NCBI GenBank assembly: GCA_018001695.1
Contig: JAGNHN010000012.1
Span: forward strand, 1-64,000
Reading direction: 5' to 3'
Source: Lentimicrobiaceae bacterium
GTDB taxonomy: Bacteria; Bacteroidota; Bacteroidia; Bacteroidales; JAGNHN01
DNA: 64,000 nt
Shown here: positions 13,145-57,561 of the stretch, piece after piece
How the letters are laid out: the number at the start of each line of letters is the position of its first letter
Position numbering within the stretch: position 1 is the first letter of the stretch
Translations under genes and position numbers: made by a program
Notes under the pieces: generated by a model
The model's database searches: none
Told to the model about the DNA's origin: nothing
Seen by the model: only the letters and a program-made list of their open reading frames with translations

Positions 13145-13150
13145 CAGTCG

Positions 13151-13227
13151 CTGATCGCTGATCGCTGATCGCTGATCGCTGATCGCTGATCGCTGATCGC
13201 TGATCGCTGTCAACTGACAACTGACCC
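13151..13227 (+). repeat. CTGNNNN heptad array in the tmRNA leader
   Basis: Eleven consecutive 7-bp units: eight CTGATCG, then CTGTCAA, CTGACAA and CTGACCC, ending 2 nt before the mature tmRNA. The final part is identical over 32 nt to the array upstream of rpsO (57520-57551). Similar heptad arrays are known as short tandem repeats in other bacterial phyla; function here is unknown. Confidence 0.9.
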
Positions 13228-13673: not shown

Positions 13674-13973
13674 GCCACGCTGTCCGTAGCGTCCACGCTA
13701 CGGACCTGATAATCATAAGTTTCACCGCTATGCGCAATGGACATCGCTACACAGGGTACGGCTGGAGCTTACACTTTATTTCGTGCGTAGCGAAGACGCT
13801 ACGCACAACGTTAATCATGGGTTTTGCCACGCTGTCCGTAGCGTCCACGCTACGGACCTGATAATCATAAGTTTCACCGCTATGCGCAATGGACATCGCT
13901 ACACAGGGCGCGGCTGGAGCCTACACTTTATTTCGTGCGTAGCGAAGACGCTACGCACAAGGTTAATCATGGG
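13674..13973. repeat. 152-bp tandem duplication carrying inverted REP-like hairpins (BIME-like)
   Basis: Two direct copies with a period of 152 bp (13674-13825 and 13826-~13973) differing at only a few positions. Each copy has two 10-bp-stem hairpins: A, GTCCGTAGCG-TCCA-CGCTACGGAC (13682-13705 and 13834-13857), and B, GTGCGTAGCG-AAGA-CGCTACGCAC (13783-13806 and 13935-13958). B is close to A in reverse orientation (shared core GTAGCGTC..CGCTAC), the arrangement of a bacterial interspersed mosaic element. No RAYT transposase is in the window. The open reading frames seen inside the repeat are by-products of its composition. Confidence 0.92.
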
Positions 13974-20185: not shown

Positions 20186-20219
20186 AGGGGGTTACCTTTT
20201 CCCCAAATGGGTATTAATA
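20186..20219 (+). promoter_or_regulatory. Putative ECF-sigma promoter upstream of the dockerin/cohesin-like gene
   Basis: AGGGGGTTACCTTTT (20186-20200) followed by GTATTAATA (20211-20219); exactly 14 nt separate GTTACC from GTATTA. The same two boxes with the same spacing lie before the ECF sigma gene on the opposite strand (26249-26283). A TSS near 20226 would leave a ~19-nt leader before ATG 20245. Interpretation as -35/-10 boxes of the ECF factor is inference from identity and spacing. Confidence 0.7.
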
Positions 20220-20244
20220 CCTGGACAGGTAAAATAATTCAGAG

Positions 20245-21507
20245 ATGAAACGACTTTTATTGGCAGCGCTCACCTGCGCAGCATGCATGGCTGTTCTCCC
20301 GGGTTACGCCCAAAGTGTGATACAGGGGCAATTGCTATACCACGATTTATGGCCCATACATCCGGCCAAGGTTTTATTGGTAAGAACAACCAACCAGACT
20401 GTAGCAGATTCAACCCAGACCGATACCCTCGGGCACTATGCCTTCAGCCAGGTAGCGGCAGGGAGCTATATTATCAAGGTGACACCGCAGTTTACCTATG
20501 ATGATATTGATATGGCCGACGCCCTGCTGGTCATCCAATACCTTGCACCCGGGCAGCAGATCAACCTAAGCCTGCTGCAGCGGCTGGCCGCCGACATGAA
20601 CAAAGACAGCCAGATCTCCATAGGAGATGCCCTGGCCATCATCCAGAAATGGATCGCCAATCAGCTCAATAAAACCACTACTGAAGAAGAATGGATCTTT
20701 GTCGCCGATACCTCCCTCCCGGATACACTGGTGATCTCGGGGCAGATAACAGATACAACGAACTATGATATGGGAGGGACGCCAAGTGGAAGCCCTTCAC
20801 CTAGTAGTTCGGATAGACCACAGAAAAAACCCTCTTACCTGCACTATTTGAAAGCCGGGGCTGTGTTGACCGCCAGCGCCGCGACAGAAACCCTGATCCC
20901 CGTCAGGATGGCTGAAAGTGCCGGGATCGGTGGGATGGGACTGGTCCTGGGTCTTAGTTCCCCCGATGCCTGCTTCCTGGGGTTTGAACCGGTTCTGCCG
21001 GGATGGACAATACAGGTCAGCGGAAATTTCCTTCGCCTGGCCTGGGTGGATGAAACATCCGGTGGCCGTAACTTCCAGCCAGATGAGTTGCTCGGACATA
21101 TCCGCCTGCAACTGTCCCCTTCCTGCACCCACCTCAGCATCACCCAGGGACCGGCCAGCCATGTCATATCGGCAGAGGGCACCCAGCTGAAACAAACCCT
21201 GTTCGAAATTCCTTCCGTTCAGACGGAAACACATACGACCCGCCTGGAAGCAGTTTACCCCCATCCGGTGACCGGATCCGCCCAGATTCAGTACGCACTG
21301 GCCGCAGCTTCCGAGGTAAAATTATGCCTGCTGGACCTGCAGGGCAGGATGGTACAGGAGATCCTGCATGCCACAAAAGAGGCCGGCAGCCACACCCAGC
21401 CGTTTACCGGCCATCAACTCCGACCCGGCATTTATGTGCTGGAGATGACCGTACAAGATACACAGCAGCGTTTCAGATTGACCAGGCAGGTCCTGCTTGC
21501 CGACTGA
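20245..21507 (+). CDS. Secreted protein with dockerin-like and cohesin-like modules and T9SS domain
   Basis: 420 residues. Signal peptide LLLAALTCAACMAVLPGYAQ; a carboxypeptidase-regulatory-like beta domain (about 22-95, QGQLLYHDLWPIHPAKVLLV ... GSYIIKVTP); a dockerin-like pair (about 95-150) whose second repeat has the calcium loop DMNKDSQISIGDALAIIQKW (D-x-N-x-D...I...D); a Pro/Ser linker; a cohesin-like beta sandwich (about 215-310: ETLIPVRMAESAGIGGMGLV ... LLGHIRLQLSP); and a T9SS type A domain. Cohesin and dockerin in one chain suggests intra- or inter-molecular assembly on the surface. It is the presumed output of the ECF sigma factor through the promoter at 20186. A terminator follows. 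Confidence 0.8.
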   Translation: MKRLLLAALTCAACMAVLPGYAQSVIQGQLLYHDLWPIHPAKVLLVRTTNQTVADSTQTDTLGHYAFSQVAAGSYIIKVTPQFTYDDIDMADALLVIQYLAPGQQINLSLLQRLAADMNKDSQISIGDALAIIQKWIANQLNKTTTEEEWIFVADTSLPDTLVISGQITDTTNYDMGGTPSGSPSPSSSDRPQKKPSYLHYLKAGAVLTASAATETLIPVRMAESAGIGGMGLVLGLSSPDACFLGFEPVLPGWTIQVSGNFLRLAWVDETSGGRNFQPDELLGHIRLQLSPSCTHLSITQGPASHVISAEGTQLKQTLFEIPSVQTETHTTRLEAVYPHPVTGSAQIQYALAAASEVKLCLLDLQGRMVQEILHATKEAGSHTQPFTGHQLRPGIYVLEMTVQDTQQRFRLTRQVLLAD

Positions 21508-21530
21508 AGCTTTACCCGTCCACCTGTCCC

Positions 21531-21558
21531 AAGGCCGGCCTGTCCGGCCTTTTTTATT
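21531..21558 (+). terminator. Rho-independent terminator after the dockerin/cohesin-like gene
   Basis: 8-bp GC-rich stem AAGGCCGG / CCGGCCTT with a 5-nt loop and T-rich tail TTTTATTT. It separates the gene from the CHAT gene downstream. Confidence 0.9.
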
Positions 21559-21577
21559 TAGCTTTGCAACAAATCCC

Positions 21578-21585
21578 TATATTTG
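21578..21585 (+). promoter_or_regulatory. TAnnTTTG promoter box (CHAT gene)
   Basis: TATATTTG, 46 nt before ATG 21632. A second match, TAGCTTTG, lies at 21559-21566. The CHAT gene therefore appears to have a housekeeping promoter, not the ECF-type motif. Confidence 0.6.
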
Positions 21586-21631
21586 TGGTATAAAGCCTGG
21601 GTATTATTGGGTTAAACAGAGCAGCACCAAG

Positions 21632-24600
21632 ATGCACCGCATTCGACTTTTCCTACTGCTGGCATGCCTCACGGGATTCCTGTGCCTGCCCATTTTCTGG
21701 CCCATGGCCCAGCAGGGCAGTGTGAAGGACCAGGGAAGCCACTGGATGCAGAAGGGGGAAAGGGCCTTCCAGGAAGCCCGCTACGACAGTGCCATCCGCT
21801 GTTTTGAAGAGGCCGCGAATGCTTTCGCCCGGCCGGAGCAGCCGGCCGCCCGCGCCAGGGCCCTGATGCGGCAAGCGGAATGCCATCGCATCATCAGCCA
21901 TATCGATAAAGCCTATCGCTTGTTTCTGGAGGCCAGGGGACTGATCGAAGCGCACCGCATACAGGATCCCATGATGCTGGGAGACCTGGGCCACCTCGAA
22001 TCCAACATTGTGTCAGACCAGGGTGACTTTGTCGCAGCCATCCGGATCATGAAGGAGGCCATCGCCCTGAAAGCCAGGGCCCATCCCCGCCCCGATTCCA
22101 GCATCAGCATGAGCCTGAACAACATCGGCTTTAACTTCTTCTACCTATCAGATTACGATTCGGCCAAGCATTATTACAGCCTGGCCCTGAACCGGGCCTT
22201 GCAGGACCGCGAAAGGTACCTGTCGGATGTGGCTACCTTTATGCAAAACATCAGCCTGGTGCATAGCAGGAAAGGAGACCTAGACAGCGCGCTCTGGCTG
22301 ATGCAGGAATCCATGGCCATGCGGGAAAAGATACTGCCGCCCGGCAATCCGGACCTGGCTCATAGTTATCTGAATATAGCTACCATCTATTCCGCAGTTG
22401 GCAATTACGAACAAGCCATGGCCTACAGCAAAAAGGCGGTGGACATCTTTTACAAAAGCCTGGGACCCGATGCCGTGGAACTGAGTATTCAATACACTTC
22501 AATAGCAAATCATTTGATTCGGCTGGGTGATAGGGAAAAGAGCCTGGAATATCATCGAAAAAGCCTTCAAATCAGCTATCAGAACGAATCACTACGGAGC
22601 GTTAGTACATCCAGCATTATGGCGATCGCTAATCATTATTTCGCCAAAGGTGACTATCAGGCATCCCTACACTACCTGCAAGACAGTAAAATTGCCCTCG
22701 ATAACCCAGGTACCCGGATATCGTATTACATTTCGCTGGCCCGTACATTAGGAAAACTAGGACAGCAGCAGGAAGCATTATCCTATGTCAGGCAGGCCAA
22801 CAAGCTAACCTTTTCAACGAACGGTCCTAATCACATTGACAACGGATATATTTTTTCATCATTGGGTGGAATCTTGCTGGAGATGGGGAATGCAACAGCG
22901 GCCCTCCAATACTACGATCAGGCACTTGCTGTATACAAGCACTATTTTGGAGACCGCAATCCAAGGATGTATTATGTGCACAGTGCCTATGCCAGTGCAT
23001 ACAACCGCCTCGGTATGCCTGACAAAGCCCTGGCGGCCTTTCAGGAAGCGATCATCTGTGCGTCAGCGTCCTTCGACGATACTTCAGTATTCCGTAATCC
23101 CAGGCCCTCTACGGTGCTGATGGCTTCCTTTCTCGTGGAGCCCTTAGCAGGTAAGGCCTTGATATTCAAAGACAAATACGACAAAACGAAGGACCTAAGG
23201 TATCTGGAGGCCTCCCTGGATGCACTCCGCTTGTCGGCCGATGCCATTGACCTGGTGCGCAACCAGTATACGGATGTAAGCAAGGCCAACATTTCGGCGG
23301 AGCAGCGTCTGGTTTACCTTAATGGAGTCGAGGTAGCCCGGACCATGTTCCAGCTCAGTGGCAGGACGGCCTACCTGGAAGAAGCTTTTCAGTTTGCGGA
23401 AAGGAGTAAATACGCCGCATTATTATCCAGTATGCGGGACATCCAGGCCCGGCAGGTGGGTCGCATACCCGACAGCCTGAGCCGGGAGGAACAGGAGATC
23501 AAAGACCGCATCATCGCCTATCAGAAGCTGATCTATGACGAGCAGCTCAAGCCGGAACCAGACCAGGACAAGCTTACGCGCTGGGAAGGGCAGTTGTTCC
23601 AGAGCAAGCGGGACCTGGAAAGCATGGTAGCCCGTCTGGAAGCTGCCTACCCGCATTACCATGAGCTGAAGTACCGTTCGGATGTTGTCCACCCACATGA
23701 GATCCAGCAACAGCTTGGAGATGAGGAGGCCATGGTGGCCTATCTCAAAGGAGACACCAACCTGTTCGCCTTTTACATCACCAGGGACGATCTCAGGCTG
23801 GTCAGCACACCCACTGACAGTAGCCTGGCTATTCACATCGAGACATTGAGAAATGCCATGACCAGCCAGGGCATTGCCAATAATTCTTCCGCTTCTTTTG
23901 CACGCCAGGCCGTTGCCGCCCATGCTCTTTTTAAGACCTTGCTTGAGCCTGGCTATGATTTACTGCAGGGGAAAGATCTCCTCATTATACCGGATGAGAT
24001 GCTGGGTTATCTTTCCTTTGACATCCTGCTGAACAAGCCCCCGGACACGGCCTCTTACGATTACAGCAAGCTTCCGTACCTGATCCGGGACCACAACATC
24101 AGTTATGCCTACCTGGCTACCCTGCAATATCGCAGGGAGGTGTCGCATAGCAAGCGCGCAACCAAGGCCATTGCTTTTGCTCCCAATTATACCGGCATAA
24201 GGGAAGCTCCGTCAGAAAACCTCCTGAGTCTAAGAGGAATGGAGAAATTCCTTTTGCCGATCAAACATGCCAAGATGGAGATGGACCTCCTGAAGGACAA
24301 GGCCGACGCCCGGATATTCACCGATGATGCTGCCAATGAATCCAATTTCAAGGCATTATCTCCTGAATACGACATTATACACCTTGCCATGCATTCGGTT
24401 GTTGACAACGAGAATCCCATGCTGTCGAAGCTGGTGTTTACGATCCCGTCGGAGGTACAGGAAGAAGATGGTTTGCTGAATGCTTTTGAGATATACAACC
24501 TGAATTTAAGGGCCAGGATGCTGGTGTTAAGTGCCTGCAACACCGGTTACGGTCAGATGCAGAAAGGCGAGGGTATCATCAGCATAGGACGGGCTTTCAT

Positions 24601-24925
24601 GTATGCAGGTATCCCTGGTATCATCATGACCTTATGGGAGATAGAAGACAAGTCGGGTTATGATATCATGACTCATTTTTACAAGTATTTATCGCAGGGC
24701 AAGGACCGGGATGAGTCCATTCGTCTGGCCAAGCTGGATTATTTACAGGCAGCTGGCAAGCTGCATGCGCACCCATACTTTTGGGCGGCCTACATCAACA
24801 TCGGGGACAATTCACCGGTCTATACAAAAAACAGACACACCACCTGGGTAGTAGTGGTGTGTCTTCTCGCCTTGTTGCTGATAGCGGGAGGGTATCTCCG
24901 GGGGAGGAGATGGAGGGAATCTTAA
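21632..24925 (+). CDS. Exported TPR-CHAT (caspase-like) protein with C-terminal TM
   Basis: 1097 residues from ATG 21632, chosen because it opens into a signal-peptide-like segment (LFLLLACLTGFLCLPIFWPMA); the longer frame from 21497 overlaps the terminator. Residues ~30-500 are tetratricopeptide repeats (e.g. YDSAKHYYSLALNRAL, YEQAMAYSKKAVDIFYKSLG). After a helical linker comes a CHAT domain (~800-1060): His921 in HLAMHSVVDNENP and Cys969 in LSACNTGYG form the caspase-type dyad, followed by GEGIISIGRAFMYAG and TLWEIED. It ends with one TM (WVVVVCLLALLLIAGGYL) and a basic tail. Predicted topology: periplasmic TPR-CHAT, anchored in the inner membrane. Its stop abuts the stop of the convergent anti-sigma-like gene. 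The protease target is unknown. Confidence 0.9.
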   Translation: MHRIRLFLLLACLTGFLCLPIFWPMAQQGSVKDQGSHWMQKGERAFQEARYDSAIRCFEEAANAFARPEQPAARARALMRQAECHRIISHIDKAYRLFLEARGLIEAHRIQDPMMLGDLGHLESNIVSDQGDFVAAIRIMKEAIALKARAHPRPDSSISMSLNNIGFNFFYLSDYDSAKHYYSLALNRALQDRERYLSDVATFMQNISLVHSRKGDLDSALWLMQESMAMREKILPPGNPDLAHSYLNIATIYSAVGNYEQAMAYSKKAVDIFYKSLGPDAVELSIQYTSIANHLIRLGDREKSLEYHRKSLQISYQNESLRSVSTSSIMAIANHYFAKGDYQASLHYLQDSKIALDNPGTRISYYISLARTLGKLGQQQEALSYVRQANKLTFSTNGPNHIDNGYIFSSLGGILLEMGNATAALQYYDQALAVYKHYFGDRNPRMYYVHSAYASAYNRLGMPDKALAAFQEAIICASASFDDTSVFRNPRPSTVLMASFLVEPLAGKALIFKDKYDKTKDLRYLEASLDALRLSADAIDLVRNQYTDVSKANISAEQRLVYLNGVEVARTMFQLSGRTAYLEEAFQFAERSKYAALLSSMRDIQARQVGRIPDSLSREEQEIKDRIIAYQKLIYDEQLKPEPDQDKLTRWEGQLFQSKRDLESMVARLEAAYPHYHELKYRSDVVHPHEIQQQLGDEEAMVAYLKGDTNLFAFYITRDDLRLVSTPTDSSLAIHIETLRNAMTSQGIANNSSASFARQAVAAHALFKTLLEPGYDLLQGKDLLIIPDEMLGYLSFDILLNKPPDTASYDYSKLPYLIRDHNISYAYLATLQYRREVSHSKRATKAIAFAPNYTGIREAPSENLLSLRGMEKFLLPIKHAKMEMDLLKDKADARIFTDDAANESNFKALSPEYDIIHLAMHSVVDNENPMLSKLVFTIPSEVQEEDGLLNAFEIYNLNLRARMLVLSACNTGYGQMQKGEGIISIGRAFMYAGIPGIIMTLWEIEDKSGYDIMTHFYKYLSQGKDRDESIRLAKLDYLQAAGKLHAHPYFWAAYINIGDNSPVYTKNRHTTWVVVVCLLALLLIAGGYLRGRRWRES

Positions 24926-25669
24926 TTATCTTTTCAGCTTTTGCATGATGAACTCCGCCCTTTGTTTGTAGGGGTTTCCTTCCTGCGCCAGTTGCCTGAG
25001 TGTCTCCAGTACTTTTTCGTTTTGCCCGGTCTTCAGGTAGCATAGTCCCTGATACCAGGAAGCTTGTTCAACGAAGAGATTTTCGCCTTCATCCATGATT
25101 TTCTGGAAGGAATTGATCGCTTCTTCGTAATTATTGATTTCCATATAAGCCAGTCCGGAATAGAAGTGCACCAGCAGGTTGGATTCGCCTTGTTTGAACA
25201 ACTGCAGGGCTCCCTGATAATCCTGGGCTTCATATTTTTTCAGGGCTTCCATGAGCTGGCCGTCATGGGTTCCTGAGGCACCGGCGCGCATGATCATGAC
25301 AGCATCATCAGGCTGGTAGTACATGCTATACAATTGTTCGGACGACATGGTATCATCCTGAACATAGTAATAGATACCGGCAGATACGATGAGCAGCAGG
25401 AGGACAGCAGCAGCCTGATAGGCCCAGGTAAAACGCCATTTTCTGATTTTATCATCGGCAGGCTGATCTGCCAGGCGTGTATGAATGCGCTGGAGTGTTG
25501 CGCGCAACGTCAGGGCATCAGTTTCAGTCAGAGCGGTATCCATTTCACGATGGAGTTCTACTTCTTGCCTGAGTGCCTCATCGGTTCTCATTGCTTCGAG
25601 AAAGGCCGCTTCCTCGGCTTGGCTCAGGTCGCCTGACAAAAATGCATCTATTAATTCAAAATACTTCAT
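24926..25669 (-). CDS. Anti-sigma-factor-like membrane protein with periplasmic TPRs
   Basis: 247 residues. N-terminal cytoplasmic part (1-~83) begins YFELIDAFLSGDLSQAEEAAF and has the helical layout of short ECF anti-sigma domains (SGDLSxEEExxFxxxMxxxxxL). One TM follows (AYQAAAVLLLLIVSAGIYYY, ~85-105). The periplasmic part (~110-247) carries TPR-type helices (YEAQDYQGALQLFKQGES, NYEEAINSFQKIMDEGEN, WYQGLCYLKTGQNEKVLETL). It starts 9 bp after the ECF sigma gene, the usual order sigma then anti-sigma. Inference: it holds the sigma factor at the membrane and senses a periplasmic signal through its TPRs, perhaps the TPR-CHAT protein encoded convergently next door. Confidence 0.8.
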   Translation of the reverse strand: MKYFELIDAFLSGDLSQAEEAAFLEAMRTDEALRQEVELHREMDTALTETDALTLRATLQRIHTRLADQPADDKIRKWRFTWAYQAAAVLLLLIVSAGIYYYVQDDTMSSEQLYSMYYQPDDAVMIMRAGASGTHDGQLMEALKKYEAQDYQGALQLFKQGESNLLVHFYSGLAYMEINNYEEAINSFQKIMDEGENLFVEQASWYQGLCYLKTGQNEKVLETLRQLAQEGNPYKQRAEFIMQKLKR

Positions 25670-25678
25670 AGTGCTGCC

Positions 25679-26239
25679 TTACTTGCTTTTGAACCTTGGA
25701 TCGGCCTTTATTCGTCTCACCAAACTCTCTTTGCATTGGTACTTCTTCTTCTTAGCATACTTCTCGCTAGAAAACCCCAGGATTTCCGCAATATCGCGTA
25801 AGGGTATACGCTGATAAAACAACCTGAGTAATCGCTGACATCTTTCGGGCAATGCCAGAAAGTGTTCCTGGTAAATCCTGAAACGGATATCCCTGGGTGA
25901 GATTCTGGCAATTTCCTGATCCAATTCTGCGAACCCATCCCAGACTTCCAGGTGTGCCCTTTCGTTTTTCTTACTATCCAGTTCCTTAAACCACAGATTT
26001 CTGGCCACAGAATAGAGGAAAGTATTAAAACTGCATGTCAGGTCTAAGCTTTCGTATGTCAATTTTCGATACATCACGATCAGTGCTTCCTGAAACAGAT
26101 CCTTAGCATCATCTTCTGATCCGCTGTTGAGCATCACCAGATTTCTGACCGAAGGATAGAACTTCTTGTAGATATACTCCAGGGTGTCTGTATCCTGCCG
26201 CTTGAAACCTTCTACAATGAGTTCGCTGTCGTATTGCAT
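25679..26239 (-). CDS. ECF RNA polymerase sigma factor
   Basis: 186 residues from the ATG at 26239 (a TTG at 26242 is directly upstream). Region sigma2 is seen as KKFYPSVRNLVMLNSGSEDDAKDLFQEALIVMYRKL with the DAKDLFQEA core-binding helix; a linker of ~60 residues rich in charge follows; sigma4 is LPERCQRLLRLFYQRIPLRDIAEILGFSSEKYAKKKKYQCKESL, whose HTH recognises the -35 box. It directs RNA polymerase to alternative promoters. The candidate promoter boxes at 26249-26283 match those of the dockerin/cohesin-like gene, implying autoregulation. The predicted start lies within about 10 nt of the -10-like box, so the mRNA would be nearly leaderless. It is followed by its likely anti-sigma gene. Confidence 0.92.
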   Translation of the reverse strand: MQYDSELIVEGFKRQDTDTLEYIYKKFYPSVRNLVMLNSGSEDDAKDLFQEALIVMYRKLTYESLDLTCSFNTFLYSVARNLWFKELDSKKNERAHLEVWDGFAELDQEIARISPRDIRFRIYQEHFLALPERCQRLLRLFYQRIPLRDIAEILGFSSEKYAKKKKYQCKESLVRRIKADPRFKSK

Positions 26240-26248
26240 CAACGTCGT

Positions 26249-26283
26249 TTATTAATACCTTTTCAACCAAAAGGTAACCCCCT
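26249..26283 (-). promoter_or_regulatory. Putative autoregulated ECF-sigma promoter
   Basis: Reading the minus strand: AGGGGGTTACCTTTT, then GTATTAATA, with 14 nt between GTTACC (26273-26278) and GTATTA (26253-26258). This is the same block and spacing as at 20186-20219. An AT-rich stretch lies upstream, as at the other site. Confidence 0.72.
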
Positions 26284-57434: not shown

Positions 57435-57442
57435 AATGCTCG

Positions 57443-57561
57443 CTGATAGCTGATAGCAGCTAACTGATCGCTGATAACTGTTCACTGTTAACTGTTCGCT
57501 GTTAACTGTTCACTGGTAACTGATCGCTGATCGCTGATCGCTGTCAACTGATGGCTGAAAT
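57443..57561 (+). repeat. CTGNNNN heptad array upstream of rpsO
   Basis: Seventeen in-phase 7-bp units, 16 starting CTG and one CAG (e.g. CTGATAG, CTGTTCA, CTGTTAA, CTGATCG). The part 57520-57551 is identical over 32 nt to the array in the tmRNA leader. It ends 39 nt before the rpsO -33 element. Confidence 0.9.

Follow-up and report, generated by a model that had tools for sequence, protein, structure and literature searches.

A conserved two-box motif before an ECF sigma gene and a secreted cohesin/dockerin gene in Bacteroidota, with a predicted exported TPR-CHAT protein in the same locus

In systems of the RpoE-RseA type, a small sigma factor is co-encoded with a one-helix membrane anti-sigma that is cut by DegS, and the target motif lies in the promoter of the sigma gene itself; typical ECF promoter boxes are named as AAC and CGT (PMC8103513). 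The Craspase or CASP system (Cas7-11, Csx29, Csx30 and CASP-sigma; PMC10028731) encodes a TPR-CHAT protease, a sigma inhibitor and an ECF sigma factor in one locus, with the sigma motif repeated in several of its promoters, and there Csx29 cleaves the inhibitor of the ECF sigma factor. DdvS-DdvA of Myxococcus xanthus joins an ECF sigma factor to one large transmembrane anti-sigma, and SigP-PorXY of Porphyromonas gingivalis ties an ECF sigma factor to type IX secretion in Bacteroidota, SigP reportedly acting on T9SS machinery genes via a two-component system (PMC4800418).

The window, by which we mean the whole 64,000-nt stretch of DNA that was analysed, contains a locus of a known kind, namely an ECF sigma factor that is paired with a membrane anti-sigma and has its own promoter motif. 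Its features are as follows.

20186-20219, plus strand: promoter 1, with -35 block AGGGGGTTACCTTTT at 20186-20200 (GTTACC 20191-20196), a 14-nt spacer and -10 box GTATTAATA (20211-20219)
20245-21507, plus strand: secreted protein of 420 aa, with signal peptide, carboxypeptidase-regulatory/SdrD_B-like domain, dockerin, cohesin-like domain and type IX tail
21632-24925, plus strand: TPR-CHAT protein of 1097 aa, with signal segment, TPR array, CHAT domain (His921/Cys969), C-terminal membrane helix and basic tail
24926-25669, minus strand: anti-sigma, with cytoplasmic N-terminal part, one membrane helix (residues ~86-104) and C-terminal TPR part
25679-26239, minus strand: ECF sigma factor of 186 aa, recognized by a TIGR02937 match above cut-off and by its orthologs
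26250-26283, minus strand: promoter 2, with -35 block AGGGGGTTACCTTTT at 26269-26283 (GTTACC 26278-26273), a 14-nt spacer and -10 box GTATTAATA (26258-26250)

The locus departs from the known kind in its boxes, which are neither AAC nor CGT but GTTACC and ATTAAT-like (ATTAAT/ATAA), in the predicted exported TPR-CHAT partner and in the cohesin/dockerin cargo. Compared with the RpoE-RseA type, the anti-sigma here has a TPR tail and the locus encodes a CHAT protein as its protease instead of DegS. The TPR-CHAT architecture with its His/Cys dyad is shared with Craspase, and Csx29 is the best structural match; unlike the Craspase protease, which is cytoplasmic and bound to Cas7-11, the protein here and nearly all of its homologs have a predicted signal segment and membrane helix, with a small membrane protein as the inhibitor. 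None of the seven neighbouring proteins matched a CRISPR family. What is one large anti-sigma in DdvA corresponds to two proteins here, the anti-sigma and the TPR-CHAT protein. The comparison with SigP was made by description: here it is a T9SS cargo gene that adjoins, and the sigma factor has an anti-sigma of its own.

The initial annotation had described two copies of the AGGGGGTTACCTTTT block, one before the plus-strand gene at 20245 and one before the minus-strand ECF sigma gene at 26239, each with an AT-rich stretch on its 5' side and exactly 14 nt between GTTACC and GTATTA, and coordinates and pattern positions bear out each of these points. The pattern GTTACC-N14-GTATTA lies at 20191-20216 (plus strand) and 26253-26278 (minus strand), continues into GTATTAATA at both places and is followed on the 3' side by the ATG of the secreted gene (20245, plus strand) or of the ECF sigma gene (26239, minus strand), promoter 2 ending ~11 nt 5' of the latter. 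These are the only matches in the window, against a mean of 0.02 in shuffled sequence, and 0 of 100 shuffles reached two. The claim that there is no third copy therefore holds for the window but fails for the genome (3.2 Mb, 99 contigs), in which the relaxed pattern GGGTTACCTTT-N11-GNATTAA has four exact matches, the two window sites and two more at C29:10238 and C89:20507, where chance would give ~0.0004 (3.2 Mb, equal base frequencies). A further site with two mismatches to this pattern is present at C65:201, and sites with three mismatches, being no more numerous than in the reversed control, were treated as chance. The third match of a first, strict pattern (C18:8760; spacer 15, GTTACCAATC...) was not counted, as it has no CTTT extension, though it does lie 5' of a gene. 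Sites are thus very rare, and the exact ones are not scattered through coding DNA, as they should not be under the promoter reading; within the stretches examined, the motif was absent before two other ECF-like genes of the same genome. Across 20 genomes with the sigma factor we found eight sites at 0-1 mismatch, compared with zero in 20 genomes of the order in which no sigma relative was detected; at two mismatches the latter set had 13 sites versus 21 in its reversed control.

Taken by themselves, the two sites might be a coincidence, but the shuffles, the genome counts and the conservation described below contradict a chance repeat. Nor do the boxes match TAnnTTTG, the flavobacterial housekeeping -7 box (PMC9723704), and an ordinary housekeeping promoter was rejected on that ground; we regard either explanation as scarcely credible.

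The sigma protein matches TIGR02937 with 63 bits against a cut-off of 42.9 (residues 19-161) and has the features of an ECF (group IV) factor, being short and having sigma2 and sigma4 only. One scan of public genomes returned 34 related sigma loci, and a relative with an E value no higher than 1e-20 occurs in 138 of 393 genomes of the order. Both boxes recur 5' of the orthologs, mostly ~43 nt from the ATG. At least 10 of 12 matches to GGGTTACCTTTT were found within 110 nt of 45/74 sigma orthologs versus 22/886 for the remaining ORFs of these loci, and among those 22 are several predicted targets. When branch variants were counted, a parsable two-box motif preceded 64 of 75 sigma genes from Bacteroidota, which agrees with the expectation that the motif should stand before orthologous sigma genes; the 11 that could not be parsed include some with truncated upstream DNA or misplaced starts, and in some the motif may really have been lost. 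Measured from ACC to the ATTAA/ATAA core, the distance was 16-17 nt in 60 of the 64 parsed promoters, in all -35 classes, and three of the four exceptions read as parser errors on an early AT-rich stretch, the fourth measuring 15 nt. The motif is conserved before the sigma gene itself, as positive autoregulation would require. The layout as a whole, with sigma factor, anti-sigma, cohesin-dockerin-like protein and TPR-CHAT protein, is a conserved module in many Bacteroidota.

The sequence of the -35 box varies between branches, its core being GTTACC here and GTAACC or ATTACC elsewhere. Group one has GGTTACC or GGTAACC with CTTT, group two has GTATTACCTTT and Chitinophaga and its relatives have GGTTACCAAA; the forms contrasted between two sigma branches are GGTTACC and GTATTACC. 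The -10 box takes the forms ATTAAT, GGATAA and GGATCAAC. Two changes suffice to place the -35 classes on the sigma tree, which is a quick tree with several weak forks. Second sites were found 5' of 14 of 19 orthologous dockerin-type genes, the strict pattern giving no site at the other five, and 5' of 6 of 9 adjoining histidine-kinase genes, so that the shared motif marks the secreted gene in other genomes as well. If one sigma factor reads both sites, the variant at the target is expected to match that at the local sigma gene, and it did so in 20 of 23 site pairs, a number reached by none of 10,000 shuffles (mean 6.9); the shuffles ignore relatedness, and the match is therefore supporting evidence, not a clean probability. 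In eight loci (L084, L086, L090, L091, L105, L106, L115 and L118) a histidine-kinase gene runs divergently from the dockerin gene and is in most cases preceded by the motif; the kinase has no obvious membrane part, and the window is without this gene. In the Chitinophaga loci, a divergent small lipoprotein gene has a site of its own, GGGTTACCTTTT-N10-GTATAAAG.

A conserved block 5' of co-regulated genes would look much the same if it were the operator of another DNA-binding regulator acting over both units, with the ECF sigma gene merely one target, and the palindrome GGTATTAATACC inside window site 1 fits such an operator. This palindrome is, however, missing at site 2 and in the orthologs, the motif consists of two separate boxes at a fixed distance in all classes, the -35 variants track the sigma tree and are shared within a locus, and genomes without the sigma factor have no near-perfect site. 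We consider an operator improbable.

It is very probable, judging from these sequence patterns, that both sites serve as promoters for the ECF sigma factor of 25679-26239, which would then drive its own operon with the anti-sigma and the convergent operon of the secreted protein and the TPR-CHAT protein. RNA polymerase carrying this sigma factor would, we infer, bind at both. The initial annotation had likewise read the blocks as -35/-10 boxes through which the sigma factor activates itself and the secreted gene, and the reading is upheld by the conserved geometry, the matched variants, the lack of near-perfect sites where the sigma factor is missing and the conservation of the motif at both genes, with the addition that the downstream unit also takes in the TPR-CHAT gene. 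Its suggestion of an uncharacterised consensus fits a literature search with the motif as a string, which returned only unrelated papers; an earlier computational listing in an ECF classification is possible.

The anti-sigma gene runs in the same direction as the sigma gene after a 9-nt gap, and its 3' end abuts that of the CHAT gene (24925/24926). Anti-sigma family models match the window protein below their cut-offs. A relative adjoins the sigma gene in 47 loci, with a protease-carrying form in the Chitinophaga group, and 18 of 18 anti-sigmas have a single central hydrophobic segment; the predicted topology is of the RseA type, with a cytoplasmic N-terminal and a periplasmic C-terminal part. 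In loci L014-L037, from Chitinophaga and relatives, the motif-bearing sigma gene has as its neighbour an anti-sigma-like membrane protein in which a trypsin-like domain is present.

The gene under promoter 1 had been called a secreted dockerin/cohesin gene, and both names stand up. Its product matches Pfam Dockerin_1 with 26.6 bits (cut-off, 22.9); the cohesin-like domain spans residues ~200-320, the ortholog in locus L106 matches Pfam Cohesin (24.4 versus a cut-off of 24.1) and the predicted structure has a cohesin fold (TM 0.74 to 5nrm). The L106 match and the modelled fold together indicate that the 420-aa protein carries predicted forms of both halves of a cohesin-dockerin pair.

The TPR-CHAT gene starts (ATG 21632) 125 nt 3' of the dockerin gene, and no second CHAT gene was found in the genome. 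The CHAT domain match has an E value of 2.7e-54. Nearly all of 38 homologs have a hydrophobic, signal-like start, retain both His and Cys and end in a membrane helix with a basic tail, and the dyad is invariant in 23 aligned sequences. The signal segment and the membrane helix with its basic tail predict a periplasmic protease in the inner membrane, that is, a protein exported and membrane-anchored. A CHAT-domain sequence search of solved structures returned nothing; fold comparison with the predicted structure (mean pLDDT, 84) gave Craspase Csx29 (Z 29.5) and separase (Z ~25) as the closest folds. DdvA of Myxococcus xanthus aligns along the model with Z 21.5 over 687 residues, at an rmsd of 25.6, which is high enough that the likeness may reflect mainly TPR repeats.

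By analogy with the systems above, the CHAT protein is a candidate site-1 protease for the anti-sigma. At rest, the anti-sigma would tether the sigma factor to the inner membrane. A periplasmic or surface signal would switch on the membrane-anchored CHAT protein, which would cut the anti-sigma on its periplasmic side, and further proteolysis would free the sigma factor. Sigma factor, anti-sigma, protease and surface protein would then rise together, giving a positive loop with built-in restraint. What we counted for the protease step are the signal segment, the His/Cys dyad and the anchor, the Csx29/separase fold, the cleavage of an ECF sigma inhibitor by Csx29 and the anti-sigma-like protein of Chitinophaga with its trypsin-like domain. 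That the TPR-CHAT protein closes the loop in this way is tentative, and we rate it somewhat below an even chance. Only just short of even is the chance we give to an arrangement in which the promoters are real but the TPR-CHAT protein is an output, processing the cohesin/dockerin protein or another envelope target, with the anti-sigma sensing via its TPR tail. For an output one expects the CHAT gene to lie under the sigma promoter, as it does on the promoter reading, and the dockerin and CHAT genes stay one unit even when on the other side of the sigma gene; against this, the TPR-CHAT protease known from Craspase cleaves a sigma inhibitor (PMC10028731) and the related anti-sigma of Chitinophaga carries a protease domain, both being arguments from analogy. 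Against the protease step speak one branch (L096 and L103, for example), in which the dockerin-CHAT pair is divergent from the sigma gene, not convergent, and those sigma loci that have no CHAT gene nearby.

Repeat tracts follow several of the sites outside the window. About 100 nt beyond the C29 and C65 sites lie tracts of 13 and 14 C, respectively, and the C89 leader is the same as that of C29, its contig ending as the tract begins; C29 and C89 share ~105 identical nt from the promoter onward. Tracts of at least 11 C occur in this genome only in C29, in C65 and at the start of C70. The last contig has just 92 nt ahead of its tract, which is not enough to reveal a site, and encodes behind the tract a beta-helix protein of 1348 aa that ends in a type IX tail. 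The C65 product shares its first 35 residues with the C70 protein, and the upstream leader frame in C65 (MSTKNNHRRGFYPPPP...) is out of frame with that protein at 14 C. These poly-C regions lie near contig ends (C29:10238-10452, L070; C89:20503-20607, L071; C65:1-230, L074; C70:1-4160, L161), and C65 and C70 are alike after the tract and different before it, as if leaders and gene bodies had been exchanged or repeated there. Another genome, G104, has four GTAGAGAGAGAGAGA tracts, each of them 90-130 nt beyond a copy of the motif, in the frame of a short ORF that starts upstream (..VERERERE..) and 200-400 nt 5' of predicted secreted proteins (L184-L187, L163); a shorter tract on its contig C44 has the same arrangement. 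The GA tract of genome G099 has no motif in front. As they accompany just 5 of 77 distinct sites, and these come from two genomes, repeat tracts were rejected as a general feature of the regulon. Within those two genomes, the motif-led repeat leaders suggest phase variation. A full surface-sensing switch, in which an exported separase/Craspase relative frees the ECF sigma factor by cutting the anti-sigma and slippery-repeat leaders (poly-C, GA) add phase variation to the induced large secreted proteins, seems to us unlikely as a whole. The window also has repeats of other kinds: tandem repeats of a 7-nt unit, TCGCTGA with variants, in two places far apart, 13148-13210 and 57440-57560, and two direct 148-nt copies, 97% identical and 152 nt apart, at 13674-13973.

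Together, these results provide a promoter consensus, with lineage-specific variants, for a sigma group present in about one-third of the sampled genomes of the order, and with a consensus this concrete its target genes can be read from sequence. They also join a CHAT protease, a relative of separase and of the Craspase protease that cuts a sigma inhibitor, to ordinary envelope signalling, a link that suggests protease-plus-ECF switches outside CRISPR and makes the locus a simple system for examining them. Should the leaders with repeats be true switches, a whole set of phase-variable surface proteins would be under one sigma factor.
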